64,000 nt of DNA from Dactylosporangium fulvum. GTDB lineage: Bacteria > Actinomycetota > Actinomycetes > Mycobacteriales > Micromonosporaceae. The DNA lies in the NCBI RefSeq assembly GCF_025137375.1, contig NZ_CP073720.1, positions 9,820,501 through 9,884,500 of the forward strand, in the 5' to 3' direction. The notes below the pieces were generated by a model. That model had not been told where the DNA came from. It made no database searches and saw only the letters and a list, made by a program, of their open reading frames with translations. Shown one piece after another: positions 7,735 to 61,961 of the stretch (positions are counted from its first letter, which is position 1; each line of letters opens with the position of its first letter). The translations under genes and the position numbers were made by a program.

Positions 7735-7937
7735 TCTGAAGGCTGGGGGCGCCAGCCGCTGCCAAGAACTATCGGCGTCCGTCCGGTTGAATCGGACAAA
7801 CGGCTCTTACGCGCTGGGTCGAGTGATCGCCACGATGGAGGCGCTCCCTGGCGGATGAGGGAGGGATCGCACTGAGACGCTGATCTGTCGGTGCAGAATG
7901 GGGCCCGTCGTGACTGTAACCAGGCAGGAGGCCGACC

Positions 7938-15000: not shown

Positions 15001-15577
15001 CCTCGTCAAGACCCTCGGCAAGCTCGTCGCCGACGAGCACGTGCCGTTCCTGCCCGCCGACCGGTACAAGCCTGCCGGCCTGCGCAAACGCATCCAGTGG
15101 GAACGCACCTGGGCATTGCAGCGGCGTGAGGACGCCGGCGAGACGATCAAGGACATTCCGGTGCCGCAAAAATATGCCTCCGCCGACTTCCTCAAAAGCT
15201 CCTACTGGGCCAACCGCGGGAAGCTCGATGTCCCCAAGGAGCGCTTCATCTCGTACCCTCGGACTGCTCTTTCCGGTGATGCCGGTGAACTGCTCGGCTG
15301 GGCGGGCTGGGACCATCTGCAACAGGCGCATGCTCTCGCCGCGTTATATCTTGACCGTAAGACCCGGGCTGCCTGGCCTGAGGAGCGACTGCTGCCCATT
15401 ATCGCCGGCATTGCCGAACTCGAGCCGTGGCTGCATCAGTGGTACGCCGAACCTCGTCCCGGCTACCCGGGCACGCCGGCCAAGTTCTTCTCCGGCCTGA
15501 TCGACACCGAGTTGGCCGCGCTCGGTGCCGACCGGGCGACCCTCACCAAGCTGCGTGGTCTTGAGGAGTTGTCATGA
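12074..15577 (+). CDS. pglX: PglX: BREX type 2 DNA N6-adenine methyltransferase
   Basis: A 1,167-residue methyltransferase with motif I (DPTCGSGHF) near residue 222 and NPPY near 356. It is the modification enzyme of Pgl/BREX-2; in Streptomyces it acts on phage DNA and its activity is tied to PglZ. Residues about 505-755 (13,590-14,340) correspond to the expected target-recognition region. That segment has a clearly lower GC content than the rest of the gene: 32 of 60 bases at 13,981-14,040 against 42 of 60 at 12,841-12,900. This suggests the specificity segment was exchanged by recombination. The gene overlaps pglW and pglY by 4 bp each, so the operon is translationally coupled. No frameshift is seen, and the C-terminal part aligns with the minus-strand paralogue. 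Confidence 0.92.
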   Translation: MIELKPLQTQVKHLVDDLRGQVTSDSDLRSRLLKEHSEAKGAERTGGTFETWLEDVLDQAAVAWVLGCVFVRFCEDNRLVDGLWLGGPEADASAGQAIEQRQAYLIQNPTHNDRHWLREAFRHLRALRGTAQIFDEHNPVWRFDVSGQAAENLSEFFRRGPGLASLRSDELDTRFLGDLYQDLSAHAKATYALLQTPLFVEEFILDRTFEPAVNEFGLAETKVIDPTCGSGHFLLGAFARLLRKWQEREPATPVETLVERALAQVTGVDLNPFAVAIARFRLVVAALQATGRRNLATAYPVRVAAGDSLLNWGERSSHQGELPVGQPKHDTFAYFSEDADLLAEYLSPGQYTVVVGNPPYITVKDKTLNERYRSMYSACSGKYALTVPFAQRFFELAKRGDGDGDGAGHVGQITSNSFMKREFGKNLINKFFAGQVDLAEVIDASGAFIPGHGTPTVILIGRNRYASPRYSGPIRTVLGIRGEPGQPADPAKGLVWTAIERQIDTVGAESEWISVANFRRDHLATHPWSLSGGGASDLVSAIEANRTQRMGDLLFRIGFYGVLGADEVFTAPLPAFTRKQVEQDYVARLVVGEEVRDYGLIDGDYTFHPYDASRSLADVTEMPSFGQWLWPFRTTLGNRATFTKGTYFSDKRPWWEWHQVPKDVGAHDWSLAFGFVATHNQFVLDRGGKVFKQSAPVIKLPEGASEDDHLELLGVLNSSTACFWLKQVSHDKGIRGEGGGFTSDDWEHFYEFTGTKLQQFPLPAARPLALSRALDGLAQRLAVVAPGGVVAGGVPTRERLKVAQVEWVSVRRGMIALQEELDWQVYRAYGLLDEDLSTNDPPELALGERAFEIVLARSSAKTEWFTRHGSTPITDLPAHWPSEYQALVERRIAVIESDRNIALIERPEHKRRWAGKGWDALQAEALRGWLLDRLESPELWGGAPKPQSVAQLADRVRHDDDFRAVLDLWVGSDAHDLVKTLGKLVADEHVPFLPADRYKPAGLRKRIQWERTWALQRREDAGETIKDIPVPQKYASADFLKSSYWANRGKLDVPKERFISYPRTALSGDAGELLGWAGWDHLQQAHALAALYLDRKTRAAWPEERLLPIIAGIAELEPWLHQWYAEPRPGYPGTPAKFFSGLIDTELAALGADRATLTKLRGLEELS
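13590..14340 (+). other. low-GC segment inside pglX, probable target-recognition domain
   Basis: Within pglX the codon use changes abruptly near 13,590 (many A/T-ending codons such as gtt, act, ttt and caa) and returns to the GC-rich pattern near 14,340. The sampled GC is about 53 percent inside against about 70 percent before it. It falls between the catalytic domain and the conserved C-terminal part, where specificity-determining segments of PglX-like enzymes lie. The borders are estimated by eye. Confidence 0.55.
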
Positions 15578-18500
15578 CGTTGCTGCGGGACCTCATCGAG
15601 ATTCCCACGTCAGTCGGGGACGCGGACTTCGTGGTTCGCGCCTCGGAGGGCGCGGACCTGCGCCGGTACGTCGTGACAGACGACCTGCGGCGCAACTTCG
15701 ACGAGGCGCTGTCGATGGTCGGGCACGCGATCACATCGGGCCGGTCGCAGGCGAAGTTCCTGCATGGTTCGTTCGGCTCCGGCAAGTCGCACTTCATGGC
15801 GGTCCTGCGGGAGATCCTGCAGCACAACCCAGAGGCGCGGGCGGTGCGTGGGCTGGCCGAGCCGGTCGCCAAGGCGGACGACAAGTGGCTGCGCGGCAAG
15901 CGGATCCTCAGTCTGACGTTCCACATGCTCGACGCGCAGTCGGTTGAGCAGGCGGTGCTGGAGGGGTACCTGCGGCAGATCACCGCACTGCACCCGGACG
16001 CGCCCGCACCGGCGGTGCACCATTCCGACGCGCTGCTGGCCGACGCGGCGCGGCATCGCGAGGATCTCCGCGACGAGCGGTTCTTCGCCCGGCTGGGTGG
16101 TTCAGGACTCACCCCTGGTACCGGCGGGGGCAGCCTGTCCGCGCAGGTCGCCCGGCAGGCCGGGTGGACCGCGCAGACGTATGAGGCGGCTGCCGCTCAG
16201 CCGCCGGGTACCGAGGAGCGGGACAAGCTGGTCAGTGCGTTGACCGCGGCGTTCTACACGGGTGCGGTGCGCAGTGGGCATTACCTGGACCTCGACACGG
16301 GGCTGGCGGTCATCACCCGGCATGCCAAAGATCTCGGGTACGACGGGATGGTCTTCTTCCTCGACGAGATGATCCTGTGGCTGTCGACGAAGATCGCGGA
16401 CCACACGTTCGTGCAGACCGAGGGTGCGAAGCTCAACAAGCTCGTCGAGTCGTCGGATGCGGCCCGGCCGTTGCCGATCGCGTCGTTCGTGGCGCGGCAG
16501 CGCAACCTGGAGGAGTTCCTCGGTCCGCAGGTCGGCGGCACCGAGCGGGAGGCTCTCGCGCATGTCATGCGTAGCGTGCAGGGCCGGCTGGGCAGCGACA
16601 TCGTGCTCGCCGACACCAACCTGCCGGAGATCACCGAGAAGCGGCTGCTGAAGCCGAAGGACGAGGCCGCGAGACACACCATCGACCAGGCATTCGCCGC
16701 GGTGCGCGGGAACCGGGATGTGTGGGACACGCTGCTGCTCGGCGCGCAGTACGGCGACGCCGGGATCGGCTCGGACGCCGCCGCGTTCCGCAGTCTGTAC
16801 CCGTTCTCGCCGGCGCTGGTCGCCACGCTGGTGGCGTTGTCGCAGGCGTTGCAGCGGCAGCGGACCGCGCTCAAGGTGATGACCGAGTTGCTGGTCGCCC
16901 GCCGGGACACGTTGCAGGTCAACGACCTCATCGGGGTGGCGGCGCTGTTCGAGCCGCTCGTTTTGCACGGTGAGCTGCCGGACCGGCCGCAGCTCAAGCA
17001 GCTGTTCCGGGCGGCCCGCGAGACGTATCTGCACAAGCTGCGCCCGCTGCTGCGCGCGGCGCATGGCATCGAGGAAGAGCAGGCCGCCGGGCATGAGCCG
17101 TTCCTGCTCGACGATCGGCTGGTTAAGACGCTGATGCTGGGCGCGCTGGTGCAGGAGGTGCCGGCCCTGCACAACCTCACCGCGGCGAAGTTGCACGCGT
17201 TGAACTTCGGCTCGATCGACTCGCCGGTCGAAGGGTACGAGAACCAGATCGTCCTGGAGCGGCTACAGCGCCTCAGCGACGACGCAGGCGAGCTGCATCT
17301 CACCGAGGGCCCGGACCCGGTGGTGTCGATCAAGTTGTCGTCGGTCGACTACGACAAGTTGCTCGATCTGGTGCGGGAGAACGAGACTGCCAGCGGTGTG
17401 TTGCAGCAGATGGTGCGTGAGCTGGTCGGTGAGGAGTTCGGCCTGGCCAGCGCTGAGGGGACGCTGGGTGAGTTGCAGCATCCCCGCGACTGGCGCGGCC
17501 GCCGGCACCATGTCCAGGTGCGGTTCGGTAATGTCCGCGACAAGGACACGCTGCCGGAGTCGGCGCTGGTCGCGTCCGGCGAGACGTGGCGTCTCGTCAT
17601 CGACTACCCATTCGATCCTGGCCACCGGCGTAACGAGGACTTCGCGCGGATCGAGACGTTGCCGCGCGGGTCGCGGACGGTGTTCTGGATGCCGTTGTTC
17701 CTCACCGATGAGGTCATGGGCCGGGTGCGGCAATTGGCGAAGGTCAACTATCTGCTCGGCAACACCGGCAGCGGTGACCGGTTGCAGAATCTCGCTGCGG
17801 ACTGGTCGCTCGCCGACCGGCAGCAGGGCAAGATCTACCTGCAGCAGCGTCAGCAGCAGCTTCGTGCGACGTTGCTGAACACGTTGAAGCAGGCGTACGG
17901 CGCGGCGAAACCCCAACCGTCCGATGTGGAGGACGACAGCGTCGGCGTGCTGCACACCCTCGCTGACGGGCTGCACATCGGCGACCCGCGGGGCGGCACG
18001 CTCAAGGCCGCGTTCGAGAACCTGACCGGTGAGCTGCTCGCCTGGGCGTACCCGGGCCGACCCGCGCTGCCGGACGACGAGAAGCCGGTCACCCGCAGCG
18101 AAATGGGCAAGATCCTCAAGTACGCGAAACTGGCGTCTGCCGACCCGACCAAGGGCGCTGCGGTCGACCAACTTGACCGCAAGACGATCCAGCGGGTCTG
18201 CAACCAACTGCGGCTCGGCGAGCTGATCGACCACCGGTATGTGCTGACCACGAGCACCAGCTGGTGGAGCCAGCACCTGCTGCAGGGCGCCGCCCAACAG
18301 GGCTACAAGGACCACTTCCCGGTGCACGTCCTGCGTGACCTGCTCGACAAGCCGGACGCCCGAGGTTTCGACCGTGAGCTGCAGAACCTCATCATCGCCG
18401 TGTTCGCGCTCGATCAGCAGCTCGCCTGGTACCAGGGCAACGTCAAGGTGACGGTCGACGCCGTGCAGGTGAACATCGACCAGTACGAACTGCGGCACCC

Positions 18501-19248
18501 GCCGATGCCCGGTGAGGACGACTGGGCCAGGGCGGTCGAGCGTGGTGGCGCGCTCTTCGGTGAGTCGCTACCGAAGTGGCGTAGCCCGGCGAACCTCGGC
18601 GAACTGGCTGGCGCGCTGAGGCGGGCCGCGCAGCAGCACACGAAGACGGCTGCGGATCTGGTGACCGAGCTGCATACCCGGGCGGGGGTGCTCGGCCTCG
18701 ACGAGCACGCGACGGCGGGCCGGCTGGCCACCGCACGGCGGGTCGTGAGACTGCTGACCGGTGTGGCCGGCGAGCAGGACGACGTGGCGCTGGTCGAGTC
18801 GATCGCCCGCGCGGACGTCGGGGACATCGACGACAAGACAGCATCGGCGGCGTTCGTACAGGCGAGGCAGGTGCTTGCCGAGCTGCGGTCCACGCAATGG
18901 CAGTTGCTCGACGCGATCCGGACGGCGGCTGCGACGAACCCTGACGCGCAGGCGATCATCGACGATCTGCGTGCCGCCGCGAACCACGAGCAACTTGCGA
19001 AGGACCTCGTTCCGGCGCTGCGCAAGGCTGCGGGCCGGTCGGCCGAACTGCTCGCGGCGGTCTCCAAGCCGCTCATCCCACCGCCGGTCGTGGTGCTTCC
19101 GGGCCTCGGTGGCAAGAAACCTGGCGGCACCCCGGCAGTCCCTTCACGAGTGGTCACCGATGTCAGTGGGCTTGCCGAGGTCGAACGGGAGATCCGTGCG
19201 GCGATAGAAGGTGGCGCCCAGGTGCAGATCACCTGGGAGGTGCTGTGA
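15574..19248 (+). CDS. pglY: PglY: large P-loop ATPase (BrxC-like), BREX type 2
   Basis: A 1,224-residue ATPase with a Walker A motif SFGSGKSH near residues 65-72 and a Walker B segment VFFLDEMILWLS near 260. The remainder is helical, with an alanine/leucine-rich C terminus and a proline-rich stretch (LIPPPVVVLPG) before the last 50 residues. PglY is the BREX-2 counterpart of BrxC, an essential ATPase of these systems thought to assemble with the other Pgl/Brx proteins. The start overlaps the pglX stop (ATGA) and the stop overlaps the pglZ start (GTGA). Length and motif order match the family. No abnormal features were seen. Confidence 0.92.
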   Translation: MTLLRDLIEIPTSVGDADFVVRASEGADLRRYVVTDDLRRNFDEALSMVGHAITSGRSQAKFLHGSFGSGKSHFMAVLREILQHNPEARAVRGLAEPVAKADDKWLRGKRILSLTFHMLDAQSVEQAVLEGYLRQITALHPDAPAPAVHHSDALLADAARHREDLRDERFFARLGGSGLTPGTGGGSLSAQVARQAGWTAQTYEAAAAQPPGTEERDKLVSALTAAFYTGAVRSGHYLDLDTGLAVITRHAKDLGYDGMVFFLDEMILWLSTKIADHTFVQTEGAKLNKLVESSDAARPLPIASFVARQRNLEEFLGPQVGGTEREALAHVMRSVQGRLGSDIVLADTNLPEITEKRLLKPKDEAARHTIDQAFAAVRGNRDVWDTLLLGAQYGDAGIGSDAAAFRSLYPFSPALVATLVALSQALQRQRTALKVMTELLVARRDTLQVNDLIGVAALFEPLVLHGELPDRPQLKQLFRAARETYLHKLRPLLRAAHGIEEEQAAGHEPFLLDDRLVKTLMLGALVQEVPALHNLTAAKLHALNFGSIDSPVEGYENQIVLERLQRLSDDAGELHLTEGPDPVVSIKLSSVDYDKLLDLVRENETASGVLQQMVRELVGEEFGLASAEGTLGELQHPRDWRGRRHHVQVRFGNVRDKDTLPESALVASGETWRLVIDYPFDPGHRRNEDFARIETLPRGSRTVFWMPLFLTDEVMGRVRQLAKVNYLLGNTGSGDRLQNLAADWSLADRQQGKIYLQQRQQQLRATLLNTLKQAYGAAKPQPSDVEDDSVGVLHTLADGLHIGDPRGGTLKAAFENLTGELLAWAYPGRPALPDDEKPVTRSEMGKILKYAKLASADPTKGAAVDQLDRKTIQRVCNQLRLGELIDHRYVLTTSTSWWSQHLLQGAAQQGYKDHFPVHVLRDLLDKPDARGFDRELQNLIIAVFALDQQLAWYQGNVKVTVDAVQVNIDQYELRHPPMPGEDDWARAVERGGALFGESLPKWRSPANLGELAGALRRAAQQHTKTAADLVTELHTRAGVLGLDEHATAGRLATARRVVRLLTGVAGEQDDVALVESIARADVGDIDDKTASAAFVQARQVLAELRSTQWQLLDAIRTAAATNPDAQAIIDDLRAAANHEQLAKDLVPALRKAAGRSAELLAAVSKPLIPPPVVVLPGLGGKKPGGTPAVPSRVVTDVSGLAEVEREIRAAIEGGAQVQITWEVL

Positions 19249-21947
19249 CGCCGGTGCAGCCGGCGGCGATCCGCCGCAAGGTCGAGGCCTGGCTCGCCGA
19301 GCCGGACGGCGTCCCCGCCATCGCGCTGCGCGCCACTCCACTGTGGACTGCGGACCCGGTGCTGTCCATCGACGGCACGGCGGTCCGGGTCGTTGCGTGC
19401 CCGACCCCGCTGGCCGCCCGTGCGGCGCTGCGGGACCGCGTCGAAGGTGAGCGGCTGGTACTGCTCACCGAGCTGACCCCCGACGAACTCGGCGACGGCG
19501 TGCTCGCCCACCTGAGCCTGCAGACCGTGCGTAGCGTCGACCCGTGGGACCTGGTCCGCCAGATGTTCGGCGGCGTCAACCTCGACGCTCGACTGGTCCG
19601 GGACGGCCGCTGGGCCGCCGAGGCACTGACCGACCACCGGCCAGCACATGGGTGGCCGGCACCGGCCGGAACCGTCCTCACCCGGGAACACGCGCTGCGG
19701 TCACTCGCCGGTGAGCTGCTCGGCCTCAACCCGAAACAGATCGACAGCGCCGGCCTGCTGCAGTGGAGCACGGACGCCCTGGCGGTGCAGGAGTTCGCCC
19801 ACCTGCCCGCGACAACCGCCGACGGGCTCACGAACTTCCTCGTCGAGATCGCTGGGCTGTCCGCACGACCGATCATGGCCGCGGTCCGCGCCGGGCACGG
19901 CGTCGACGCGATACCCCTAGGCCTGCTGACCGGTGCGCTGTGGGCGCCCGCGTTTAACGCCGAGGTCCCGGTGCAGATCGCGGTGGCCCGGACGAGACTG
20001 GAGCCCCGATTCGGCGGCGACCGGCTGAGCGACGCCTCCGCCGCAGCGTTCCGGGCAGCGGCCGAAGCGTGGCTGGACCGCGCGGTCGATGCCGGGCACC
20101 TCGATGCGGACGCGAGACCCGTGCTGCGGCGGGCGGAGGCCATCGCCGCCGAGATCGACGCCACGTCGCTGCTGGCGGAGAGCGCCGTCCTGCCGACGGG
20201 CTTCACCCAGCGGATGCGTACCTTCGCCGACGCGCTGCGGCTTGCCGTGCCGGCCGGTGGACAGGCTGACCCGGCCGCAGTCGTCAAGGCGCAGCAACTG
20301 CTGGCCCGGTCTGAGGAACACCGGGCCGCCGATCCCGCGGCTCTGGAGACGGCGCGGATGGCCGTACGACTCCTGCGGTGGCTCACCGAGCCGGACCCCA
20401 GCGCCCCATCAACCCTTGCTGAGGCGCTCCACCGCCACGTCCGCGAGGACGGCTGGGTCGACCGGGCCCGGCTCGACATCTTCGCCGGAGACGTCGACCC
20501 GCAACTCGCCCAGGCGTATCAACAGCTCCATCAGGCCGTCCAGGCCCGCCGGTCCCGGCACGACGACCAGTTCGCCGGTCAGCTCGCCCACGCGACCACG
20601 GCGGAATCGGACCCGGGCACCATGCTGCGCGTCGAGGAGGTGCTCGACCGCGTGGTGCAGCCGATCCTGGACCACGGGCAGCGGGTGCTGCTCCTGGTGA
20701 TGGACGGGATGAGCGTCGCGGCAGCGACCGAACTCGCCGAGTCGATCACGAAGTCCGGTTCGTGGCTGGAGCTGACGCCCGCCGGTAGCGCCCGGACCGG
20801 GGTGCTCGCCGCGCTGCCGACGGTGACCGAGGTCAGCCGGTGCAGCCTGCTTAGCGGCCGGATCGCCGTCGGACAGCAGGCGGAGGAACGCAAGGCGTTC
20901 GAGGCGCGGTACCCGTCCGGTGTCCTGCTGCACAAAGGCAACCTCCGTGCCGGCGCGGGTGCGGCGTTCGCGCCGGACGTCGTCGCTGCGCTGCAGTCGC
21001 CGGAGCGGGCGCTGGTCGCGGCCGTCGTCAATACCATCGATGATGCCCTCGACCGCAGCGACCCGGGGACGATCATCTGGGGGCAGGAGACCATCCGCGC
21101 CGTCCGGGACCTGCTCGCACTGGCCCAGGACCGCGTGGTCGTCGTCCTCTCCGACCACGGCCACGTCGTCGACCGCGGCCCGGAAGCGATGCTACGGCCC
21201 AGCCCGAGTAGCGAAAACCGCTGGCGGCCGGCCACCACACCGGCGAGCGACGGCGAGCGGCTCTTCAAGGGCAGCCGGGTGGCGAAGGCCGGGGGCAGCG
21301 TGGTCCTGCCCTGGCGTGAGGAGCTGCGGTACGGTCCGCGGAAGGCCGGCTACCACGGCGGCGCGTCACCCGCCGAGGCGGTGATTCCGCTGCTGGTGTT
21401 CAGCGCCGGCAACGACCAGGCGGTGCCCGGCTGGTCCGGCGCCCCGGTCGCCAGTCCCGAGTGGTGGCGGGAGTCGTTGCAGCAGCCCGGTGCCGCTGTC
21501 CAGACCCCTCGCCCGGCCAAACGCAACGGATCGCGCCGGGCTGCTTCGACGGCGCCGCAGTTCGAAGGCGCATTGTTCGAGGTGGTCGAGCTGCCGGCCC
21601 AGCCACCCGCAGCGCCGCCCGCACCGGCTCCTCAGTCTCCGGCGCTCGTCGATGCGCTGCTAGCCAGTGAGGTGTACGCGCAGCGCCGCGGCACCCGGGC
21701 GCCGCTGCCCGACGAACGGGTCCGGGCGATGCTCACCGCCCTGCTCGCGAACAACGACCGGGTCGCGCGCGACACCCTCGCGGCCCTCGCCGGGATCCCT
21801 GACCACCGGACCGGCCCCACCATCACCGCCCTGCAGAAGTTGTTGCAGGTGGAGGGATACCCGGTGCTCGAGATCGACGCCGACGGCCGGACCGTCGTGC
21901 TCAACCGGGCGCTGCTGATCGAGCAGTTCCACCTGGAGCCGTCGTGA
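19245..21947 (+). CDS. pglZ: PglZ: alkaline phosphatase-superfamily protein, BREX type 2
   Basis: A 900-residue protein with the metal-site motifs of the alkaline phosphatase superfamily: LLLVMDGMSVA near residue 483 (first metal-binding Asp) and VVLSDHGHVVDRG near 633 (Asp-His pair). An alanine/proline-rich linker lies near 770-790, and a short C-terminal winged-helix-like segment follows (residues about 810-900, ending VLNRALLIEQFHLEPS). PglZ is the hallmark protein of all BREX types and in Streptomyces Pgl counteracts the toxicity of PglX. GTG start with 4-bp overlaps on both sides. All recognisable metal-site motifs are present, so it is probably active. Confidence 0.92.
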   Translation: MTPVQPAAIRRKVEAWLAEPDGVPAIALRATPLWTADPVLSIDGTAVRVVACPTPLAARAALRDRVEGERLVLLTELTPDELGDGVLAHLSLQTVRSVDPWDLVRQMFGGVNLDARLVRDGRWAAEALTDHRPAHGWPAPAGTVLTREHALRSLAGELLGLNPKQIDSAGLLQWSTDALAVQEFAHLPATTADGLTNFLVEIAGLSARPIMAAVRAGHGVDAIPLGLLTGALWAPAFNAEVPVQIAVARTRLEPRFGGDRLSDASAAAFRAAAEAWLDRAVDAGHLDADARPVLRRAEAIAAEIDATSLLAESAVLPTGFTQRMRTFADALRLAVPAGGQADPAAVVKAQQLLARSEEHRAADPAALETARMAVRLLRWLTEPDPSAPSTLAEALHRHVREDGWVDRARLDIFAGDVDPQLAQAYQQLHQAVQARRSRHDDQFAGQLAHATTAESDPGTMLRVEEVLDRVVQPILDHGQRVLLLVMDGMSVAAATELAESITKSGSWLELTPAGSARTGVLAALPTVTEVSRCSLLSGRIAVGQQAEERKAFEARYPSGVLLHKGNLRAGAGAAFAPDVVAALQSPERALVAAVVNTIDDALDRSDPGTIIWGQETIRAVRDLLALAQDRVVVVLSDHGHVVDRGPEAMLRPSPSSENRWRPATTPASDGERLFKGSRVAKAGGSVVLPWREELRYGPRKAGYHGGASPAEAVIPLLVFSAGNDQAVPGWSGAPVASPEWWRESLQQPGAAVQTPRPAKRNGSRRAASTAPQFEGALFEVVELPAQPPAAPPAPAPQSPALVDALLASEVYAQRRGTRAPLPDERVRAMLTALLANNDRVARDTLAALAGIPDHRTGPTITALQKLLQVEGYPVLEIDADGRTVVLNRALLIEQFHLEPS

Positions 21948-23245
21948 CACCGGACATCTCGGCCCGGCGGCGGCGTGACGTCATCGACGCGTTGCGCCGC
22001 GGTGCCGTACCGATGAACGGCCTGGACGTCCTCGCGGTCGGCCTGGACCGGTTCACGGCCGCGACCGACGACGATCTCGACCGGGTCACCGGTGGCGGCA
22101 GCGTCTTCAAAGCCGTCCGGGGCGAGTACGGCGCGGGCAAGACGTTCTTCACCCGCTGGCTCGCCGAACGCGCCAAGCGACGCGGTCTCGCCGCCGCCGA
22201 GGTCCAGGTGTCTGAGACCGAGACGCCGCTGCATCGCATGGAGACCGTGTACCGGCGGCTCGTCGAGCGGCTCGGCACCGAACAGTTCGTGCCCAGCGCG
22301 ATCCGGCCGATCCTCGACGGCTGGATCTTCACCCTCGAAGAGGACGTCCTCGGCACCGGTGAGGTCACCGAAGACGACGCCGAGGCGCTCGACCGGGCCG
22401 TCGGCGACCTGATGGAACGCCGCCTGGCGGAGATTTCCCGCAGCGCACCCGGTTTCGCCGCCGCACTCCGCGCCTACCGGACCACAGCAGCGGCCGGTGA
22501 CCACGCGACCGCGGAGGGCCTCGCCGCCTGGATCGGTGGGCAGCCGCACGTGGCCGCCGCGGTCCGGCGGGTCGCCGGGGTCAAGGGCGACCTCGACCAC
22601 TTCCAGGCGCTCAACTTCCTCCAGGGACTCCTCACGGTCCTGCGCGACAGCGGCCACCCTGGGCTCCTGCTGGTCCTCGACGAGGTCGAGACCCTGCAAC
22701 GGGTCCGCTCCGACGCCCGGGACAAGGCCCTCAACGCCCTGCGCCAACTCGTCGACGAGGTCCACGCCGGACGCTTCCCCGGCCTGTACCTCGTCATCAC
22801 CGGCACCCCCGCCTTCTTCGACGGGCCGCAAGGCGTGCAGCGCCTCGCGCCCCTCGCGCAGCGGCTGGCGACGGACTTCGGACCCGACGCACGCTGGGAC
22901 AACCCCCGCGCCGTCCAGGTCCGCCTGCCCGGGTTCACCATCGACACGCTGACCGAACTGGGCATCAGAGTCCGGGACCTGTACGGCAGCAGCGAGGTCT
23001 CCGCGCGGGTCGACGACGCGTACATCGGTGAACTGGCCCGTGCCGTCACCGGCCGGCTCGGCGGGCAGGTCGGTGTGGCACCGCGGATCTACCTCAAGAA
23101 GCTCATCGCCGACGTCTTCGACCGGGTCGACCAGTTCCCCGACTTCGACCCCAGGCTGCACTACGGGCCGACGCTGCGCTCCGACGAGCTCACCGACGTC
23201 GAACGCAACGCCGCCTCAGCCGACGAGATCGACCTGCCGATGTGA
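21944..23245 (+). CDS. brxD: BrxD: ATP-binding protein of BREX type 2
   Basis: A 433-residue P-loop ATPase. Walker A is GEYGAGKT near residues 59-66 and Walker B is LLLVLDEVETLQR near 242. Its arrangement (short N terminus, P-loop, long middle, Walker B, a GTP-AFF sensor-like segment TGTPAFFDGPQGV near 285, then a helical C terminus) matches BrxD, one of the two ATPases that distinguish type 2 from other BREX types. It overlaps pglZ and brxHI by 4 bp. It was probably acquired and expressed with them as one unit. Confidence 0.88.
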   Translation: MTPDISARRRRDVIDALRRGAVPMNGLDVLAVGLDRFTAATDDDLDRVTGGGSVFKAVRGEYGAGKTFFTRWLAERAKRRGLAAAEVQVSETETPLHRMETVYRRLVERLGTEQFVPSAIRPILDGWIFTLEEDVLGTGEVTEDDAEALDRAVGDLMERRLAEISRSAPGFAAALRAYRTTAAAGDHATAEGLAAWIGGQPHVAAAVRRVAGVKGDLDHFQALNFLQGLLTVLRDSGHPGLLLVLDEVETLQRVRSDARDKALNALRQLVDEVHAGRFPGLYLVITGTPAFFDGPQGVQRLAPLAQRLATDFGPDARWDNPRAVQVRLPGFTIDTLTELGIRVRDLYGSSEVSARVDDAYIGELARAVTGRLGGQVGVAPRIYLKKLIADVFDRVDQFPDFDPRLHYGPTLRSDELTDVERNAASADEIDLPM

Positions 23246-25359
23246 GCACCGACGCCGGCCTCGACCCGATCGTGGTCCACCACATCGTCAACACCCTCGG
23301 ATGGCGCGACCTCCGCCCCCTGCAACGAGCGGCGGCCGAGCCGCTCCTCGCCGGGCACGACGCGCTCCTGCTCGCCCCGACCGCCGGCGGCAAGACCGAA
23401 GCGGCGATGTTCCCGATCCTGTCCCGTATGGCGGCGGAGGACTGGTCCGGCACATCGGTGCTGTACCTGTGCCCGCTCAAAGCACTACTGAACAACCTCC
23501 ACCCCCGGCTGGAGCGCTACGCCTCATGGCTCGGCCGTCGCGTCGCGCTCTGGCACGGCGATGTCGGCGCGAGTCAACGCCGCAACGTGCTCTGGCAGCG
23601 GCCGGACATCGTGCTCACCACCCCCGAGTCCCTCGAATCCATGCTGGTCAGCGTTCACGTCGACCACCGCCAGTTCTTCGCCGGTCTGCGCGCGATCGTC
23701 GTGGACGAGGTACACGCCTTCGCCGGTGACGACCGTGGCTGGCACCTGCTCGCTGTACTTGAGCGGCTCACCACCATCGTCGGCCGGCCACTGCAGCGGG
23801 TCGGCCTCTCCGCCACCGTCGGCAACCCGGACCAGCTCCTGCACTGGCTCCAAGGACCATCAGCCGGCCAACGGCAGGCGAAGGTCGTTGCACCGGACCT
23901 CACCCCGACCCGCAACCCCGCCCTCGGTCCGCCTCCGGGTGAGATCGAACTGGACTACGTCGGTTCGGTCGCCAACGCGGCAACCGTCATCGCCTCGCTG
24001 CACGCCGGCGAGAAACGGCTGGTGTTCTGCGAATCACGGCAGACCGTCGAAGAGCTCGGCGCGCTGCTACGGGCCAAGGGCGTGACGACGTTCCTCTCCC
24101 ACGCGTCGCTGTCGGTCGACGAGCGGCGCCGCGCCGAGCAGGCGTTCGCCGAGGCCCGCGACTGCGTCATCGTGTCGACCAGCACCCTCGAGCTCGGCAT
24201 CGACGTCGGCGACCTCGACCGGGTCATCCAGATTGAGAGCCCTGCCACGGTCGCGTCGTTCCTCCAGCGCCTCGGACGCACGGGACGCCGCGCCGACACC
24301 GTGCGCAACTGTCTCTTCCTGACCACCCGCGGCGAATCGCTGCTGTCCGCGGCGGCCCTGCTGCACCTCTGGGGCAGTCACTGGGTGGAGCCGATCACCG
24401 CACCGGCGGAACCGCGCCACATCGTCGCGCAGCAGATCCTTGCCCTGTGCCTGCAGGAAGGCCGGATCGGCGATCAGACCTGGCCGCAGTGGTGGAACGG
24501 CCTGGACCCGTTCCGTGCCGGCGGATACGTCATCGTGCGGCACCTCGTCGAGCACGGGTACCTCGACAGCGACGGCGGCATGCTGTTCATCGGCCCCGAA
24601 GCGGAGAAGCGTTTCGGGCGGCGTCACTTCATGGACCTGACCGCCGTCTTCACTGGCCCGCCCGAGTTCACGGTGTTGACCGGCCGCACCGAGGTGGGCC
24701 GGATCGACCCGAGCCTGCTGACCGAAGAGGCGCCTGGCGAACGACGGCTCCTGCTCAGCGGACGCAGCTGGCATGTCACGTACGTCGACTGGCGCCGCCG
24801 GCGGTGCTTCGTCGAACCGGCCGACGGCGGCGGACGGGCCCGCTGGCTCAACCAGGGCTGGGCCGGACAGAGCTACGAGTTGACCCGCGCCACACGGGAA
24901 GTCCTGCTCGGGGCCGACCCACCGGTAAAACTGACCCGGCGCGCGACCGACCGCCTCGCCCAGGAACGCGACGAACTGAGCAGCCTGATCCACCCGGGCG
25001 GCAACACCATCGTCCGCGACGAGAAGGGCGACCTGAGATGGTGGACCTGGGCCGGCTTCCGGGCCAACGCAACCCTCGCAGCCACCCTCAGCGAGGTCAC
25101 CGACCCCATGCACCGCTTCGACGACTACCAGATCCGGCTCCGCGAAGACCTGACGCCGTCTACGTGGCGCGAGCTGACCGCTGACGCCACCACCCGACTG
25201 TGCCTACCGGAACCCAGCGAGAAGGCCCTACGGGGCTTGAAGTTCAGCGAGGCGCTCCCACCTCGGCTGGCGGTCGCGACACTCGCCGCACGAATCGCCG
25301 ATCTTGCTGGCGCCGCCGCGGTCCTGGCCGAACCGGTCCGATTCGTGTCGGTGCTGTAG
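23242..25359 (+). CDS. brxHI: BrxHI: DEAD/DEAH-box helicase of BREX type 2
   Basis: A 705-residue superfamily 2 helicase with clear motifs: Walker A PTAGGKTEA near residue 47, DEVH (VVDEVHAF) near 154, SAT (GLSATVGN) near 190, and motif VI QRLGRTGRR near 341. A C-terminal region of about 300 residues resembles Lhr-type helicases. It is the last gene of the BREX-2 operon and starts within the brxD stop. The next gene is on the opposite strand and converges, with its stop 20 bp away, so the operon ends here although I see no obvious terminator hairpin. Confidence 0.9.
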   Translation: MSTDAGLDPIVVHHIVNTLGWRDLRPLQRAAAEPLLAGHDALLLAPTAGGKTEAAMFPILSRMAAEDWSGTSVLYLCPLKALLNNLHPRLERYASWLGRRVALWHGDVGASQRRNVLWQRPDIVLTTPESLESMLVSVHVDHRQFFAGLRAIVVDEVHAFAGDDRGWHLLAVLERLTTIVGRPLQRVGLSATVGNPDQLLHWLQGPSAGQRQAKVVAPDLTPTRNPALGPPPGEIELDYVGSVANAATVIASLHAGEKRLVFCESRQTVEELGALLRAKGVTTFLSHASLSVDERRRAEQAFAEARDCVIVSTSTLELGIDVGDLDRVIQIESPATVASFLQRLGRTGRRADTVRNCLFLTTRGESLLSAAALLHLWGSHWVEPITAPAEPRHIVAQQILALCLQEGRIGDQTWPQWWNGLDPFRAGGYVIVRHLVEHGYLDSDGGMLFIGPEAEKRFGRRHFMDLTAVFTGPPEFTVLTGRTEVGRIDPSLLTEEAPGERRLLLSGRSWHVTYVDWRRRRCFVEPADGGGRARWLNQGWAGQSYELTRATREVLLGADPPVKLTRRATDRLAQERDELSSLIHPGGNTIVRDEKGDLRWWTWAGFRANATLAATLSEVTDPMHRFDDYQIRLREDLTPSTWRELTADATTRLCLPEPSEKALRGLKFSEALPPRLAVATLAARIADLAGAAAVLAEPVRFVSVL

Positions 25360-35632: not shown

Positions 35633-35968
35633 CTACTCGGGCAGTTCGCCTGTGGTGTTTGCTGCTCGCAGGCCGTCACACGGGATGAGACGCGGTGGCA
35701 CGCCGGGGATCGCTGCGTGGCGGCGGCTGCCGCAGAGGGCGCAGCGCTGGTCGGATTCGAGGGTCCACGCGAGGAAGCGTCGGTAAAGCGCTGCCGGGTC
35801 GGTGTCGTCCAGCTCTCCTTGAGCGATGGCCATGAGCTTGGCCATGGTTTGGCGGAGCATGGCCAAGTCGCTATTCCGCAGGATCCGCTGCGCCTCGGTG
35901 CACGGCCAGGGGAGTCCGTCGGCGGTGCAGGTCCAGGACGGGCGGATGACCCGGTGGGCGGCGCTCAC
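35633..35968 (-). CDS. small conserved protein of actinobacterial integrative elements
   Basis: A 111-residue protein beginning VSAAHRVIRPSWTCTADGLPWPC, with a CALCGS pair near residue 85. Proteins starting in this way are common next to XRE regulators in actinobacterial integrative elements and are often misnamed flavin reductase. The cysteines may bind zinc. The GTG at 35,968 overlaps the stop of the XRE gene, so the two are coupled. The longer frame to 36,487 is rejected because its first half is the shadow of the XRE gene. Function unknown. Confidence 0.6.
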   Translation of the reverse strand: MSAAHRVIRPSWTCTADGLPWPCTEAQRILRNSDLAMLRQTMAKLMAIAQGELDDTDPAALYRRFLAWTLESDQRCALCGSRRHAAIPGVPPRLIPCDGLRAANTTGELPE

Positions 35969-36261
35969 CGTCGGTTCCCGGCGTGCCGTCGTTTCCGGTC
36001 GGCAGCTGCGGTACGGCGCAGCACGGCCATGGGGAGATCGAGTGAGTCGGCGATGACGGGCAGCAGCGGTGCCGTCGGGATGCGCAGGCCGCGCTCGTAC
36101 CGTGAGATCTCGTGGCGGGTGAAGGTCGGGCGACCCGACCTGGCGCACAGCTGGTCGGCCAGATCGCCTTGGGTCATGCCGAGCTGGTGCCTGCGGTGGG
36201 TGATCAGCTGGCCGAAGCTGCCCGCGGTCGCGGGGCCGCGGCGTGGCGGTACGTCTGACAT
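35965..36261 (-). CDS. XRE-family transcriptional regulator
   Basis: A 98-residue DNA-binding protein with a complete helix-turn-helix: LITHRRHQLGMTQGDLADQL, then TFTRHEISRYERGLR. It has a GGGAGGA ribosome binding site 5 bases before its ATG. It is the typical small regulator of actinobacterial integrative elements and probably represses the element's own genes. The large repeat region starts about 110 bp upstream of it, so the TGACA repeats are candidate binding sites. Confidence 0.75.
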   Translation of the reverse strand: MSDVPPRRGPATAGSFGQLITHRRHQLGMTQGDLADQLCARSGRPTFTRHEISRYERGLRIPTAPLLPVIADSLDLPMAVLRRTAAADRKRRHAGNRR

Positions 36262-36369: not shown

Positions 36370-36788
36370 TGACACCGCCGCCGACCGGGGGACCGGCGTG
36401 GCACGCAGTGGTTGTGACATGCGGCGTGGACAGTGCTATGACATCGTCGCTGGCGTGTGACGCTGCAGCTGGCGGCGATCGTGTCATCGGCAGGTGACAG
36501 CAGGCGTGGCGACTGTGACAGCGGGGCGTGTCACGCCTGAGCTCGCAACGGTGTCAATCGATGATCTTCGTTGACATTTCGGCGTGTCGTGGCTGGCATT
36601 GTCACCGCGGGTGTGGCCTGTCATCAAGGTCAAGTAGTTCCTCACCTGGTGTTTGACATGTCATCACGTCGAGATGGCAACATGTCACGTTGATCCACGG
36701 CGCGTTGTGTGCGACTGGATTGACATGCGAGTGACGTCCGGTGGTACGCCGTGGCGGATGTCCATGACATCGACGTATGTCGTTGACA
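36370..36788. repeat. array of 17 TGACA/TGTCA pentamers in both orientations
   Basis: TGACA occurs at 36370, 36415, 36439, 36495, 36516, 36572, 36654, 36721, 36765 and 36784. TGTCA occurs at 36482, 36529, 36552, 36600, 36619, 36659 and 36683. By chance about one would be expected in 420 bp. Many are extended to TGACAT or TGTCAT. Spacing is irregular. No gene lies here. It resembles a multi-site protein-binding region such as an origin, a transfer site or a regulator array. Confidence 0.7.
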
Positions 36789-36824
36789 TGGCGGACGGTG
36801 TTGACGCCGCGTGTGGACCAACCG

Positions 36825-37023
36825 CTCACAACCGCTCACAGTGACCGGTTCCGCTGTGAGTGGCTCGCCGCCCTGCGCTCACAGCGCAGGTCCTGTGCCG
36901 TAGCACGTGACGCTCACAGAGAGCCCTACCCCGCGCTCACAGCGACTCACAGCGCACTCACAAAACCGGCCCGGGCGCCGTGTGAGCGGCTGTGAGTGGT
37001 GGGGGCGTTCGCCAGCGCTCACA
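36825..37023. repeat. array of 11 CTCACA/TGTGAG hexamers (iteron-like)
   Basis: CTCACA occurs at 36825, 36835, 36878, 36913, 36936, 36946, 36957 and 37018. TGTGAG occurs at 36855, 36981 and 36991. Most copies read gcgCTCACAgc. Some are spaced 10 or 11 bp apart, one helical turn, so a protein could bind on one face. This second array follows directly after the TGACA array and precedes the replication-relaxation-like genes. It may be an origin or a transfer locus. Confidence 0.7.
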
Positions 37024-37294
37024 ACGGCGGATAGGAGGGCGCAGGGCTCGACGGCTGGTGGTGGGCCGATCGAGCAAGCGCCATCGCCGTCTGCCAGACG
37101 CCGCGAGGTCGGTAGCGCTTTGCCGTCTGTGCTGGCGTCCTTGTTGACCGCCGTCATGGCGTCCGTCTTGATCCGGACCCCGCAACGGACGTCGCCGGCC
37201 GCTGTCCCTGCAGCACGTGCCCCGTCCGGTCGTTCGGGCGGCGGCTCAGAGACACGCTGCGTTCTCTTCCCCCGTACCAGATGAAAGGAAAACC

Positions 37295-38119
37295 GTGCCT
37301 GATCAGGTCTTGCGGGTGCAATCGGTCCTGACTGCCCGCGACCATCAACTCCTCGACTGGCTCTTCGACCATGGGGTTCTGACGACTGGGCAGATCGCTG
37401 AGGCGCTGTTCCCGTCGCTGGACTTCGCGCAGCATCGCCTGCAGCGGCTCATTGCGCTGAAGGTGGTGGACCGGTTCCGGCCGTTCCGGGCCGAGGGCGG
37501 TTCGTATCCGTTCCACTACGTCATCGATCAGCTCGGCGCCGAGGTTGTCGCGGCACAACGCGACGAGTCGGTGCCCAGACCTGGGTACGCGAAGGCGATC
37601 CGGCGCCGTTGGACCGCTTCGCGGATCCTGCAGCATCGCCTTGGGGTGAACGGCTTTTTCACCCAGCTCGCCGGGCATTCCGCGCACGAGTTGCAGCGGT
37701 GGTGGTCCGAGTCGCGGTGCAGCGTGCCGGGTGCGTTCGCCGGGCCGGGCGATCGGGTGGAGCTCATCACGCAGACCCTCATCCGCCCGGACGGGCACGG
37801 TGTCTGGTCCGGTGTGCCGTTCTTCCTCGAGTACGACACCGGCGGCGAACCCCTCACTGAGCTGCTGCGCAAGCTCGCTGGGTACGCCCGGTTCACAGCG
37901 CTCGGCGGGCCGGCGTGGCCGGTTCTGCTGTGGCTGCACTCGCCGGATCGTGAACACCATCTGCATCAGCGGCTCGCCGATCTCGGCCCGCTCGGGACGC
38001 CGGTCGCCACTGCTGCCCGCGTTCCAGGAGTCCACGCCGCCACCGGGCCCTGGTGGTTGCACGGCCTCCCCGGACCACTCGCCCTTGCTGACCTGCCTAT
38101 CGGAGGCATACGACCGTGA
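37295..38119 (+). CDS. replication-relaxation-like winged-helix protein
   Basis: A 274-residue protein. The N terminus (LTARDHQLLDWLFDHGVLTT, then GQIAEALF and AQHRLQRLIALKVVDRF) is a winged helix of the replication-relaxation type found in plasmids and integrative elements of Gram-positive bacteria. The C-terminal part contains FFLEYDTGGEPLTELLRKL, which recalls the endonuclease-like core of such proteins. The GTG at 37,295 is chosen because GAAAGGA lies about 6 bases upstream. It overlaps the next gene, a shorter relative, by 4 bp. It sits immediately downstream of the repeat arrays, which makes binding there plausible. Confidence 0.65.
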   Translation: MPDQVLRVQSVLTARDHQLLDWLFDHGVLTTGQIAEALFPSLDFAQHRLQRLIALKVVDRFRPFRAEGGSYPFHYVIDQLGAEVVAAQRDESVPRPGYAKAIRRRWTASRILQHRLGVNGFFTQLAGHSAHELQRWWSESRCSVPGAFAGPGDRVELITQTLIRPDGHGVWSGVPFFLEYDTGGEPLTELLRKLAGYARFTALGGPAWPVLLWLHSPDREHHLHQRLADLGPLGTPVATAARVPGVHAATGPWWLHGLPGPLALADLPIGGIRP

Positions 38120-38817
38120 AGACCACATTCTCTCTCACCGACCTGTGCGGCCTCATGCCGCGCGACCGCTGGGCCATCGACATGCTCGCCGAGCACCAGG
38201 CCCTCACCACCGAGCAGTTCACCGCGCTTGGCTACGACTCCGCGTCGGTTGCTGCTGGTCGACGGCTGCGTACCCTGGCCCGCCTCGGCTGGCTCGTCCG
38301 CGTCGACTCGGCCTGGCTCCCGGGCTCGTTCGGCGTCCAGCTGCGCCGACCCGTTTCTGGCGAGCCGGATCTGACCACCAACCAGTTCTTCGTCGACCTG
38401 GCCGCCCATGCCCGTACACAGGCCGGCACCGACCTTCGGGCCTGGCGATCCGTACCCGCTCCGTACTGCGAGTACCTGCACAACGGCAAGCGCATCGGGT
38501 TCTGGTATCAGCGCGACCCCGGCGGACCGCCGTTGCGCTGGCTGCGCCGGTACCGCTCCCTCGCCGTCGACACCGGTGTCAGCCTGCTGCTCGTCACCAC
38601 CGACGACCCGGACCGCCTCGGGCGCCAGTCGGGAGGGCTGACCATTGCGGCCAGTCGCCCCGGTGAGCTCGTGTGGCGTGTCCGCGGTGAACGCCTTGCC
38701 TTGCACGAGCTCCCCGCGGCGGAGCAGCTCGATCCGTCGGTGCGCCCGATCTACGACCCGCAGCGGCCGTACGACGAGGCCGTCGCCGACGGCGTGTACT
38801 CCTATGTCCGCGCGTAG
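38116..38817 (+). CDS. second replication-relaxation-like winged-helix protein
   Basis: A 233-residue protein whose N terminus (MPRDRWAIDMLAEHQALTTE, then QFTALGY and GRRLRTLARLGWLVRV) is a winged helix similar to that of the preceding protein. The C-terminal half is different (FWYQRDPGGPPLRWLRRYR). It is coupled to its neighbour by a GTGA overlap, and the next gene starts 14 bp before its end. The pair may act as a heteromer on the element's origin or transfer site. Confidence 0.6.
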   Translation: MKTTFSLTDLCGLMPRDRWAIDMLAEHQALTTEQFTALGYDSASVAAGRRLRTLARLGWLVRVDSAWLPGSFGVQLRRPVSGEPDLTTNQFFVDLAAHARTQAGTDLRAWRSVPAPYCEYLHNGKRIGFWYQRDPGGPPLRWLRRYRSLAVDTGVSLLLVTTDDPDRLGRQSGGLTIAASRPGELVWRVRGERLALHELPAAEQLDPSVRPIYDPQRPYDEAVADGVYSYVRA

Positions 38818-39016
38818 CGCCTGGACTCCCGAGCGGCTCCGGGCGCTCGGTCCGACCACCGATCTCGCCACCGCTGCGGAGATCCTCGGCGTCTCGCGGT
38901 CCGCCGCGTACAAGTTCGCCCGCCGTGGCGCGTTCCCGGTGCCGCTGCTCAAGGTCGGCGCTGTCTATCGGGTACCGACCGTGCCGTTGCTCGCCGCCAT
39001 CCACCTCGACGCGTAA
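38804..39016 (+). CDS. excisionase-like helix-turn-helix protein
   Basis: A 70-residue protein. DLATAAEILGVSRSAAYKFA, then FPVPLLKVGAVYRVPT, is the MerR/excisionase-type fold that binds DNA near attachment sites. It lies directly before the integrase on the same strand, the normal place for a recombination directionality factor. The ATG at 38,804 lies within the end of the preceding gene. It probably steers the integrase toward excision, which here would restore the SARP regulator gene. Confidence 0.75.
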   Translation: MSARSAWTPERLRALGPTTDLATAAEILGVSRSAAYKFARRGAFPVPLLKVGAVYRVPTVPLLAAIHLDA

Positions 39017-39120
39017 GGGAATCGTCGGCGCTCGCCCGTCACGACTTGAACGTGCTGGCGAGGCGAGCGTCGATGGTCCGACAAACCGTTGCCCACCCTG
39101 ATCGGAGCACACCACCGACC

Positions 39121-40578
39121 ATGGCAGAAGGAAGCATCTTCAAACGCTGCGGCTGCCGCGACCCGCAGACCGACAAGCCGTACGGCACCCACTGCCCCCA
39201 ACTGCGCCGCCCGAACCGCTCCTGGAACCCGCAGCACGGCCACTGGGCGTACCAACTCGAACTCCCACCCACCGCCGATGGACAACGCCGCCTGCTGCGC
39301 CGCGCCGGCATCGCCACCCGCCAGCAGGCCGTCGCCGAACGCGACCACGCCCGCGCGCTGCTGGGCCTGGCTGGCCGCGACCGCCGCCGCCAGATCGAAA
39401 TCGGCGACGTCATCCAGAACGCGGTACGCCACCGCCTCCCGTTCCCCGACGTCGACCGCGTCCGCCAACGCCTGCGCGGCGACGGACCGCTCGGCGACAT
39501 GCCCACCGTCGGCGAGTACCTCACCACCTGGCTCGAGCACCTCGCGGCCGACATCAACACCATCCACGGCTACGAGTCCATCGTCCGTGTCCATCTCATC
39601 CCGTACCTCGGCGACGTACCCCTCGACAAGCTGCGCACCAGCCACCTGCGGGCGATGTTCGTGGCCATGGAACGCCGCAATGCCGAGATCCGTGAACTGA
39701 AGGCCAGCCCTGACCCGGCGATCCGAAGGACCGTCGCTCGAATCCGCCCTACCGGGCCGGTCACCCGTCACCACATCCGGGCCGTACTGCGGAAGGCGAT
39801 CAACGACGCCCTTGCCGACGAACTCATCGTCGGCTCCAACCCCGCCATGCTCGTCAAGACACCCGCCGACCGCGCCCTGCCGATCGTGTGGGAAGCCGAA
39901 CGCGTCGAACGGTGGCAGATCACCGGCGAGGTCCCCGGGCCGGTCATGGTCTGGACCGCCGAGCAGGTCGCCACGTTCCTCGACTACGTAGCCGACCACG
40001 ATGCAGTGATCCACCCGATGCTGCACCTGATGGCGTACCGCGGACTGCGCCGAGGCGAAACCGTCGGACTGCGAGACACCGAAGCGCGACTCGCCAAGCG
40101 GGAACTGACCGTCAACAACCAGATCGCGATCATGGGTCATCGGACCATCCAGAAAGCGCCGAAGAGCCGTGCCGGGAACCGGGACATCGCCCTCGACGCC
40201 GACACCGTCCGAGTGCTCACGGCGTACAAGGCGCGCCGCGCGACATGGCGACTCGCCGTTGGGGAGGCGTGGCCGGACACCGGGCTGTTCTTCGTCCGGC
40301 CCGACGGGCAGCCATGGCATCCGAATGCGTTCAGTGCGCGGTTCCGCCTGCTGGCACGGAAGGCGGGGATGCCGCCGGTACGGCTGCATGATCTACGACA
40401 CTCGGCGGCGACCATCGCACTGGACGCGGGAATCGACATCAAGGTCGTGTCCGAGCAGCTTGGCCACTCGACCACCACCTTGACACGGGATACGTACCAA
40501 AGCGTCACTAAGCAGATGCACCAGGACGCGGCCGACGCGGTGGCCGCCAGAATCGCCGGCAGAACTGCCAGTTCGTAA
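39121..40578 (+). CDS. tyrosine site-specific recombinase (integrase) of the element
   Basis: A 485-residue integrase. The N-terminal arm-binding region begins MAEGSIFKRCGCRDP. A SAM-like core-binding domain (PTVGEYLTTWLEHLAADINT) is followed by the catalytic domain, with Arg310 (YRGLRRGE), HxxR 423-426 (HDLRHSA), His449 (LGHS) and the nucleophile Tyr459 (DTYQSV). All catalytic residues are present. The ATG at 39,121 is chosen because residues encoded upstream look non-coding. The gene ends 98 bp before the right junction, as expected when attP lies beside int. Its target here is a protein-coding gene, not a tRNA gene. Confidence 0.9.
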   Translation: MAEGSIFKRCGCRDPQTDKPYGTHCPQLRRPNRSWNPQHGHWAYQLELPPTADGQRRLLRRAGIATRQQAVAERDHARALLGLAGRDRRRQIEIGDVIQNAVRHRLPFPDVDRVRQRLRGDGPLGDMPTVGEYLTTWLEHLAADINTIHGYESIVRVHLIPYLGDVPLDKLRTSHLRAMFVAMERRNAEIRELKASPDPAIRRTVARIRPTGPVTRHHIRAVLRKAINDALADELIVGSNPAMLVKTPADRALPIVWEAERVERWQITGEVPGPVMVWTAEQVATFLDYVADHDAVIHPMLHLMAYRGLRRGETVGLRDTEARLAKRELTVNNQIAIMGHRTIQKAPKSRAGNRDIALDADTVRVLTAYKARRATWRLAVGEAWPDTGLFFVRPDGQPWHPNAFSARFRLLARKAGMPPVRLHDLRHSAATIALDAGIDIKVVSEQLGHSTTTLTRDTYQSVTKQMHQDAADAVAARIAGRTASS

Positions 40579-56814: not shown

Positions 56815-56938
56815 CGGCTGGGTGCACGGCCCGGCACCGCTTGACCAACACCCTTCACAGATCGCGGACGTTCCGATGGCCTGGGACCCACTGAAACGTC
56901 CGTGATCATGGAGCTTGGCTGCCTCGAGCGGCCACGGG

Positions 56939-61955: not shown

Positions 61956-61961
61956 AAGATC

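Follow-up and report, generated by a model that had tools for sequence, protein, structure and literature searches.

Adjacent repeat arrays with conserved cores beside the relaxase operon of a putative mobilizable element in Dactylosporangium fulvum: a candidate promoter/operator possibly answering to a helper-encoded sigma factor

The DNA analysed here (the window, 64,000 nucleotides) is part of the 10.5-Mb chromosome of Dactylosporangium fulvum and contains two short-repeat arrays lying side by side. They are bordered by an XRE-family regulator gene on the left and by a Replic_Relax gene on the right, just as the earlier note had placed them (Table 1). To the right of the arrays, the relaxase, a second PF13814 protein, an excisionase-like protein (xis) and the integrase are all encoded in one direction. 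Among named relatives, Dactylosporangium aurantiacum is the closest at this locus, with a relaxase that is 92% identical.

Table 1. Features of the element in the window (positions are those of the 64,000-nucleotide stretch)
Feature	Position	Strand	Remarks
BREX type 2 (Pgl) operon, probable cargo	7795..25359	+	displaced relative to the integrase in D. aurantiacum
XRE-family regulator	35965..36261	-	98 aa; in L003 a homologue adjoins a like array
TGACA/TGTCA array	36370..36788	.	17 copies, both orientations, uneven spacing; comparable arrays at sister and ICE loci
Core within the TGACA array (consensus by eye, approximately YCATCGAYNNNNGTCGYTGACATS)	36767..36790	+	21/24 letters match the sister-locus seed
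CTCACA/TGTGAG array	36825..37023	.	11 copies, some spaced 10-11 bp
Core of the CTCACA array, TGTGAG - GTTCGCCA - CTCACA - CGGATAG	36991..37045	+	GTTCG at 37007; proposed as promoter/operator of the relaxase operon to its right
Replic_Relax (PF13814, MOBC-type relaxase)	37295..38119	+	N-terminal winged helix; invariant D166, E179, D181, E185, K193 C-terminally
Second Replic_Relax-like protein (weaker PF13814)	38116..38817	+	233 aa, E 6e-9
Excisionase-like HTH protein (xis)	~38840..39016	+	read from the frame; homologues adjoin integrases; function by resemblance and position
Tyrosine integrase	39046..40578	+	Phage_integrase 6e-18

The relaxase matched the PF13814 model with 163.9 bits (curated cut-off, 25.3), and its five C-terminal residues listed in Table 1 were invariant in 37 aligned sequences. 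This family is equated with the MobC relaxases in the part of PMC5357655 that treats them, and an excerpt of a review describes MobC relaxases as PD-(D/E)XK-like (PMC5714925). According to fold search, the N-terminus is a winged helix resembling MarR, TubR and AspA, which bears out the earlier suggestion that a winged-helix protein is encoded next to the arrays. The fold-search matches listed for the relaxase, most of which cover the winged helix, include no relaxase or restriction-enzyme chain, which does not count against a nuclease fold of the C-terminal domain. Just three plasmid records matched the relaxase, at 35-36% identity, no plasmid relative of the whole region was found at E 1e-5, and the 51-bp core region compared with plasmids gave one partial, chance-like match within a Klebsiella gene.

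The possession of its own integrase and relaxase, both recognized by Pfam, and of an excisionase recognized by resemblance and position fits an integrative mobilizable element (IME). Among the ORFs scanned in the window there was no T4SS set, the one HerA/TrwB-like ATPase (26854-29919) aside, and no VirD4 match next to the relaxase, while the single FtsK/SpoIIIE match remained below the cut-off (23.0 vs 24 bits) and fell in that HerA-like ATPase. The latter, a protein of 1021 aa with a HerA/TrwB-like domain and an N-terminal AAA_16 domain, has small uncharacterised neighbours and may be a defence or a DNA-translocation protein. A search for attL/attR direct repeats bounding the window element gave no convincing repeat. 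The BREX type 2 (Pgl) set spans 3971-25359 and comprises PglX, PglW, a second PglX, BrxC/PglY, PglZ, BrxD and BrxHI. On the D. aurantiacum contig, the BREX DNA starts 645 bp past the end of the integrase match, whereas in the window (7795-25349) it lies to the left of the arrays and hence across the integrase; nothing on that contig matches the PglX gene at 3971-7393. A swap of this sort is expected if one element is circularly permuted, so the BREX genes are probably cargo of the same element as the arrays. The window also carries a c-di-AMP riboswitch on the plus strand (Rfam RF00379, 80 bits, 61822-61957) and, outside the element, tandem repeats of 15/30/44 bp and 13 bp (54806-54969 and 56737-56815).

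Recounting reproduced both copy numbers given in the earlier note. Within the 64-kb window, 17 of the 60 TGACA/TGTCA copies start at 36370-36784 and 11 of the 20 CTCACA/TGTGAG copies at 36825-37018. A first-order Markov model drawn from the whole window predicted a mean of 0.58 (maximum 6 in 2000 draws) for the former and 0.09 (maximum 2 in 2000 draws) for the latter, and under the composition of the arrays themselves the means were 2.6 (maximum 9) and 0.28 (maximum 4), thus both arrays are far above chance, as had been claimed. The spacing of 10-11 bp was likewise seen between several CTCACA copies (36825/36835, 36936/36946/36957 and 36981/36991). That no gene lies under the arrays is likely: mechanically called ORFs do overlap them, and the claim stands on the maintenance of the arrays as repeats at sister loci.

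The D. fulvum genome contains a second copy of the module (L003), with XRE, TGACA array, CTCACA array, relaxase, xis and int; its TGACA array is split by a transposase gene with DDE_3 and HTH_32 domains (L003:10128-11240), which we take to be of the IS630 type. The third PF13814 gene of this genome (L016) is devoid of such arrays. Relaxase searches found 67 named loci, and in the 65 where the upstream region was examined (L059 and L085 were excluded for too little upstream DNA) both arrays occurred in four, all from Dactylosporangium (L020, L022, L026 and L030). Conservation in sister elements, the lack of which the earlier note had named among the refuting outcomes, was accordingly observed. 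The remaining named loci had other repeat letters or nothing up to 2.6 kb upstream of the relaxase. The absence of arrays near these relaxases is weak evidence, because complete ICEs place the relaxase about 7 kb from the nearer core (see below). In many Micromonospora loci of a different relaxase group (L052-L082), CGGTCC/GACCGC repeats, as many as 19 copies in L057, are densely arrayed upstream of the relaxase together with CTGTCA repeats.

Inside each array there is a conserved core, which goes beyond what had been described. Alignment of the sister arrays revealed a conserved segment of 34 bp (37001-37034) where the CTCACA array ends on the right, and this was also present in Actinoplanes and Micromonospora loci. 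The window core reached a matrix score of 50.7, while the best score across 26 coreless loci was -3.9. A mismatch-tolerant scan, from which low-scoring matches judged to be due to chance were dropped, left 38 cores. With a degenerate pattern the core was detected in 93 of 354 Micromonosporaceae genomes, and the same pattern read backward gave 0 in every row among the matches listed. In a draw of 396 genomes from the phylum, it was present in the window's own genome alone and in none of the 394 outside the family. The layout over 106 distinct cores was a hexamer at -16, GTTCG at 0, a hexamer of opposite sense at +11, CGGTTT or CGGATA at +22 and GGGTG near +30, where any position that the search pattern itself prescribes is circular evidence in this set, although these positions were already invariant in the 38 kept cores. 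The GTTCG is thus flanked by inverted hexamers. Scanning the window region for the sigma-70 consensus gave no match. The relaxase of the window starts 288 nt past GTTCG, which means a long leader; folding of the leaders downstream of the cores was close to the control (median z -0.33 and -0.18, respectively) and the conservation of leader hairpins was not significant.

To see what the cores face, 40 loci around cores were taken (a few duplicate named loci) and the ORFs of 46 loci were clustered. Among the matches listed, cores are mostly paired at a distance of 0.3 to 12.5 kb, the left one on the minus and the right one on the plus strand, hence they point outward. The 45 loci contain 88 distinct cores. 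For 77 of them a gene could be assigned in the 2.5 kb downstream, in all 77 cases on the same strand and in none on the opposite one (a tie within 150 nt was counted as same), and 11 have no assigned gene. The genes faced are the relaxase, the integrase, the T4SS operon or a methylase operon. Twenty loci were taken as complete ICEs because they contain TrbL-like, PrgI, methylase and cluster-13 genes, and 18 of these also the clusters of the VirB4-like and the coupling protein (the sequence of some loci stops early). In the ICE loci, one core is directed toward the T4SS operon and the other toward cluster 13 (a gene of unknown function) and an N6/N4 DNA methylase, sometimes with xis and int beyond. 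In L154, L156, L163 and L166 the T4SS operon ends with the relaxase, which is there about 7 kb away from the nearer core. The IME-like loci either have xis-int and the relaxase on opposite sides or have all of them co-directional, as in the window. By inspection, one core usually accompanies a single co-directional operon and two cores accompany divergent operons, the exceptions being the co-directional loci with two cores (L151, L160, L179, L182 and L183) and L030 with two tandem cores. Of 33 cores on the methylase side, 25 have an ATG-type start 71-74 nt past GTTCG, and the two sides' cores diverge downstream of about +34. As judged from these comparisons, the position of the cores, the same-strand genes, the recurrent start distance and the divergence of the two sides are promoter-like behaviour. 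Integrase arm sites were considered as well and set aside, since the distance between arrays and integrase gene is about 2 kb in the window and several kb in some ICE loci.

A further gene linked to the cores encodes a protein of roughly 300 residues (cluster 4), which was found in 27 of the 46 loci, including all 20 ICE loci, where it is placed between the cores; in L182 the gene lies outside its cores. Two of its 21 collected sequences (set A3) were left out, the frameshifted L153 and the divergent L179, giving a set of 19 (A4). The predicted model had a pLDDT of 79.7 and a pTM of 0.55. All Foldseek matches listed name sigma factors or RNA polymerase complexes, the best being 6jbq (E. coli sigmaE, probability 1.00, E 4e-3), and none reached E<=0.001. 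VIA comparison gave an rmsd of 2.1 over 90 residues with 4x8k (Z 8.2) and 3.5 over 108 residues with 6omf (Z 9.7), the best Z being 10.0, where values below about 13 can reflect the common arrangement in helical proteins. None of the Pfam sigma models passed the cut-off: the 19 A4 members gave no match, and in set A6 Sigma70_r2 was matched by 2 of 14 members (best E 0.024). Among PDB sequences the matches were chance-like only. Taken at the level of the predicted structure, the matches listed are strongly suggestive of, though below the level that would establish, a sigma-factor fold with regions 2 and 4. In the window genome (G000) the sigma-like protein had no match at 1e-10. Split or frameshifted sigma-like genes occur in the mobilizable-type loci L153, L162, L169 and L182, as if these had decayed from ICEs, and some other genome matches also contain stop codons.

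The sigma family reaches beyond Micromonosporaceae, with matches in 35 of 296 genomes of the class (two of these in the family). In a prospective test of 20 sigma loci from outside the family, no outward pair exceeded 29.2, the 95% point of a cross-locus null with a mean of 19.8 and a maximum of 36.6 (n 100; best same-locus direct-orientation control, 23.2). L234 scored 28.0 and the others <=20.5, and the test was counted as negative. By eye, L234 (G756:C48) shows an outward inverted pair, below that 95% point, the ends of which run on as GGGGTGTCGGC and GGGGTGCGGGA and in this resemble the two sides of type-1 elements.

Presence of the core largely goes with that of the sigma-like gene. Strong sigma matches (E<=1e-75) and cores occurred together in 66 genomes, sigma alone in 17, core alone in 27 and neither in 244, which corresponds to an odds ratio of 35 for genomes that are not independent and for a threshold that, like the type-2 core pattern below, was chosen after inspection of the data. 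Among the 17 strong-sigma genomes without a pattern core, 13 had divergent cores flanking the sigma gene (nine on both sides, four on one) and four had none. Of the 27 core-only genomes, 11, including that of the window, were without any sigma match and 16 had a weak one; they may harbour satellites without the matching ICE, but it is just as possible that the core functions in the absence of this sigma. The sigma-like protein has a paralogue (40% identity across 213 residues), and 17 of the 19 loci with it contain cores of another type (type 2), which read GTTCGATC-N3-CTGACA or CTGTCA, form outward pairs in nine loci and have the start about 69-70 nt on by eye; this pattern, derived from the same 19 loci, gave no match in 1.85 Mb of other loci.

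The two cores of a locus also resemble each other. The 23 within-locus pairs were 0.811 identical compared with 0.722 after shuffling, and none of 2000 shuffles reached the observed value (maximum 0.775). The letters of the upstream repeats go with those of the core: repeats were TGTGAG at 36 of 36 CACACA cores; at CTGACA cores they were TGTCAG in 27, TGTGAG in two and a tie in six cases; and at the 35 CTCACA cores TGTGAG in 23, TGTCAG in seven and a tie in five. In L195 (CTGCCA) and L204 (CTGTCC) the same unusual letters appear in both cores and in the array. Comparison of the loci thus shows that core letters vary jointly with the partner core, the array hexamer and the sigma clade, and it is likewise comparison that shows the arrays, the cores, their pairing and their orientation.

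From this pattern we infer promoter activity of the cores, their recognition by the sigma-like protein, a repressor role for the hexamers and dependence on a helper. The CTCACA array with its core is probably a sigma-dependent promoter/operator of the relaxase-second Replic_Relax-xis-int operon, and the window element may await the sigma of a helper ICE. The whole core class would then be promoters read by a divergent, element-encoded sigma factor, with GTTCGCC as putative -35 and CGGATAG/CGGTTT as putative -10 boxes (assigned by eye). In the complete Micromonosporaceae ICEs, a TGACA array usually adjoins the sigma-like gene, which is placed between two outward cores; one of these would drive the T4SS operon and the other the methylase operon with xis-int beyond. 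The hexamers upstream of and within the core (CTCACA here) may be sites of a cooperatively bound regulator, which is more likely a repressor because one hexamer falls between the putative -35 and -10. The TGACA array would be a second regulatory or DNA-processing site. On balance, we regard the window element, with its XRE, arrays, PF13814 relaxase, xis, integrase and probably BREX genes, as a likely mobilizable relative of the ICEs without a sigma gene. Since that gene is absent there and none was detected in the genome, the element may answer to the sigma of an incoming helper ICE, which would switch on its excision and relaxase genes. The earlier view of two separate regulatory arrays tied to transfer genes was upheld, while the origin reading was not retained for the CTCACA array and its core, the position, orientation and pairing of which, together with the linked sigma-like gene, point to a promoter/operator.

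The best-surviving alternative, which we consider unlikely on the whole but worth keeping in view, leaves the CTCACA core as a promoter and makes the TGACA array with its own core an oriT or partition site. TGACA/TGTCA clusters (at least 7 copies per 450 bp, counted over the whole locus and with CTGACA copies included) occur in 43 of 45 core loci, and a separate TGACA core, sought with a seed from L003, outscored all shuffled sequences (best, 16) in 20 of 38 loci. Across loci the copies are of mixed orientation and without fixed spacing, and the array, directly upstream of the sigma gene in several ICE loci (e.g. L155 and L156), is kept in sigma-less IMEs. However, by sequence such a site is inseparable from an operator of the sigma gene, L195 and L204 have just three and two TGACA copies between their cores, and clusters of 7-8 copies also lie upstream of several coreless relaxase loci. 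It is possible that the TGACA array is an operator for the sigma gene or a site of the relaxase.

Less probable is that the entire region is an oriT, where the MOBC-type relaxase binds the short repeats via its winged helix and nicks in or near the core. The assignment of PF13814 to MobC in the cited part of PMC5357655, the relaxase gene adjoining the arrays, the likeness of its winged helix to the centromere binders TubR and AspA, the inverted hexamers around GTTCG and the presence of the relaxase family in ICE as well as IME loci, which would be needed of a TGACA binder, are in accord with this. Yet there are two outward cores per ICE, one of them immediately before the methylase operon, the relaxase is remote from the nearer core in the four ICE loci where it was seen, and the cores lie upstream of same-strand genes and follow the sigma clade in type.

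We also think it improbable that the arrays are a local operator of the XRE repressor only, with no sigma acting in trans. The XRE gene does abut the TGACA array in the window, L003, L020, L022, L026 and L030, but its orientation to the array differs (window and L020 vs L003, L022, L026 and L030), no homologue of it was found in the array loci of other genera, and L040 has an XRE gene without such arrays. Homologues of the window XRE were found in Dactylosporangium loci only while TGACA clusters are nearly general in core loci, thus XRE cannot be the general TGACA binder, and this part of the earlier proposal on binding proteins was rejected. Least probable of all is an iteron origin for replication of the excised element, which would suit repeats spaced by 10-11 bp upstream of a gene named for replication and the ICEBs1 relaxase reported to start replication of the excised element too (an excerpt of PMC5357655), but is disfavoured by the uneven, mixed TGACA copies, by cores tied to operon starts and by the lack of a recognised replication initiator among the ORFs scanned.

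Judged from titles and abstract starts among the matches listed, the open-access literature searched showed no description of an ICE sigma factor or a core of this kind. The pAD1 plasmid reportedly has a MOBC relaxase, TraX, acting with oriT2, an oriT with short repeats. The window shares the MOBC relaxase and the short repeats with it, but the position of the window core fits promoters better. AICEs have the module order rep-xis-int, and the window module is of a like type. FtsK-type actinobacterial AICEs, as outlined in part of PMC3218068, are similarly integrated actinomycete elements, whereas the ORFs scanned in the window include no FtsK/TraB above the cut-off and the related ICEs are of T4SS type with PF13814. 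Class 8 of the streptococcal IMEs, in the passages of PMC5357655 that present it, has the same compact relaxase-excisionase-integrase order and a PF13814/MobC relaxase, but a serine integrase and VirD4 in place of the tyrosine integrase and repeat arrays of the window. The closest logic that we found in print is that of SGI1 (an excerpt of PMC4605294), a mobilizable island with a xis promoter that reads AcaCD, the master activator of the helper IncA/C plasmid, so that excision follows helper entry. Control of excision by a helper would be common to both, although the SGI1 helper uses a FlhDC-type activator and for the window we propose an element-specific sigma with hexamer arrays.

The locus thus belongs to an ordinary class, the control region of a mobile element, and the proposed mechanism is unusual in that an element sigma has a private promoter pair and sigma-less satellites keep the promoter. 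Tentatively, and with rather less assurance than for the promoter itself, we suggest that each ICE of this actinomycete family has a diverging sigma of its own and a private regulon of two promoters, that the joint change of sigma, core and hexamer makes these orthogonal channels, and that sigma-less islands, here with BREX cargo, keep the promoter and eavesdrop on the matching ICE. If this is right, it would be a sigma-based counterpart to the listening strategy of SGI1/AcaCD, and the vaguely named replication-relaxation genes would become parts of a testable transfer system. The diverging sigma/promoter sets would be a natural orthogonal collection for genetic tools in antibiotic-producing actinomycetes, and the cores would provide a sequence signature by which helper ICEs may be found and paired with their satellites across Micromonosporaceae.
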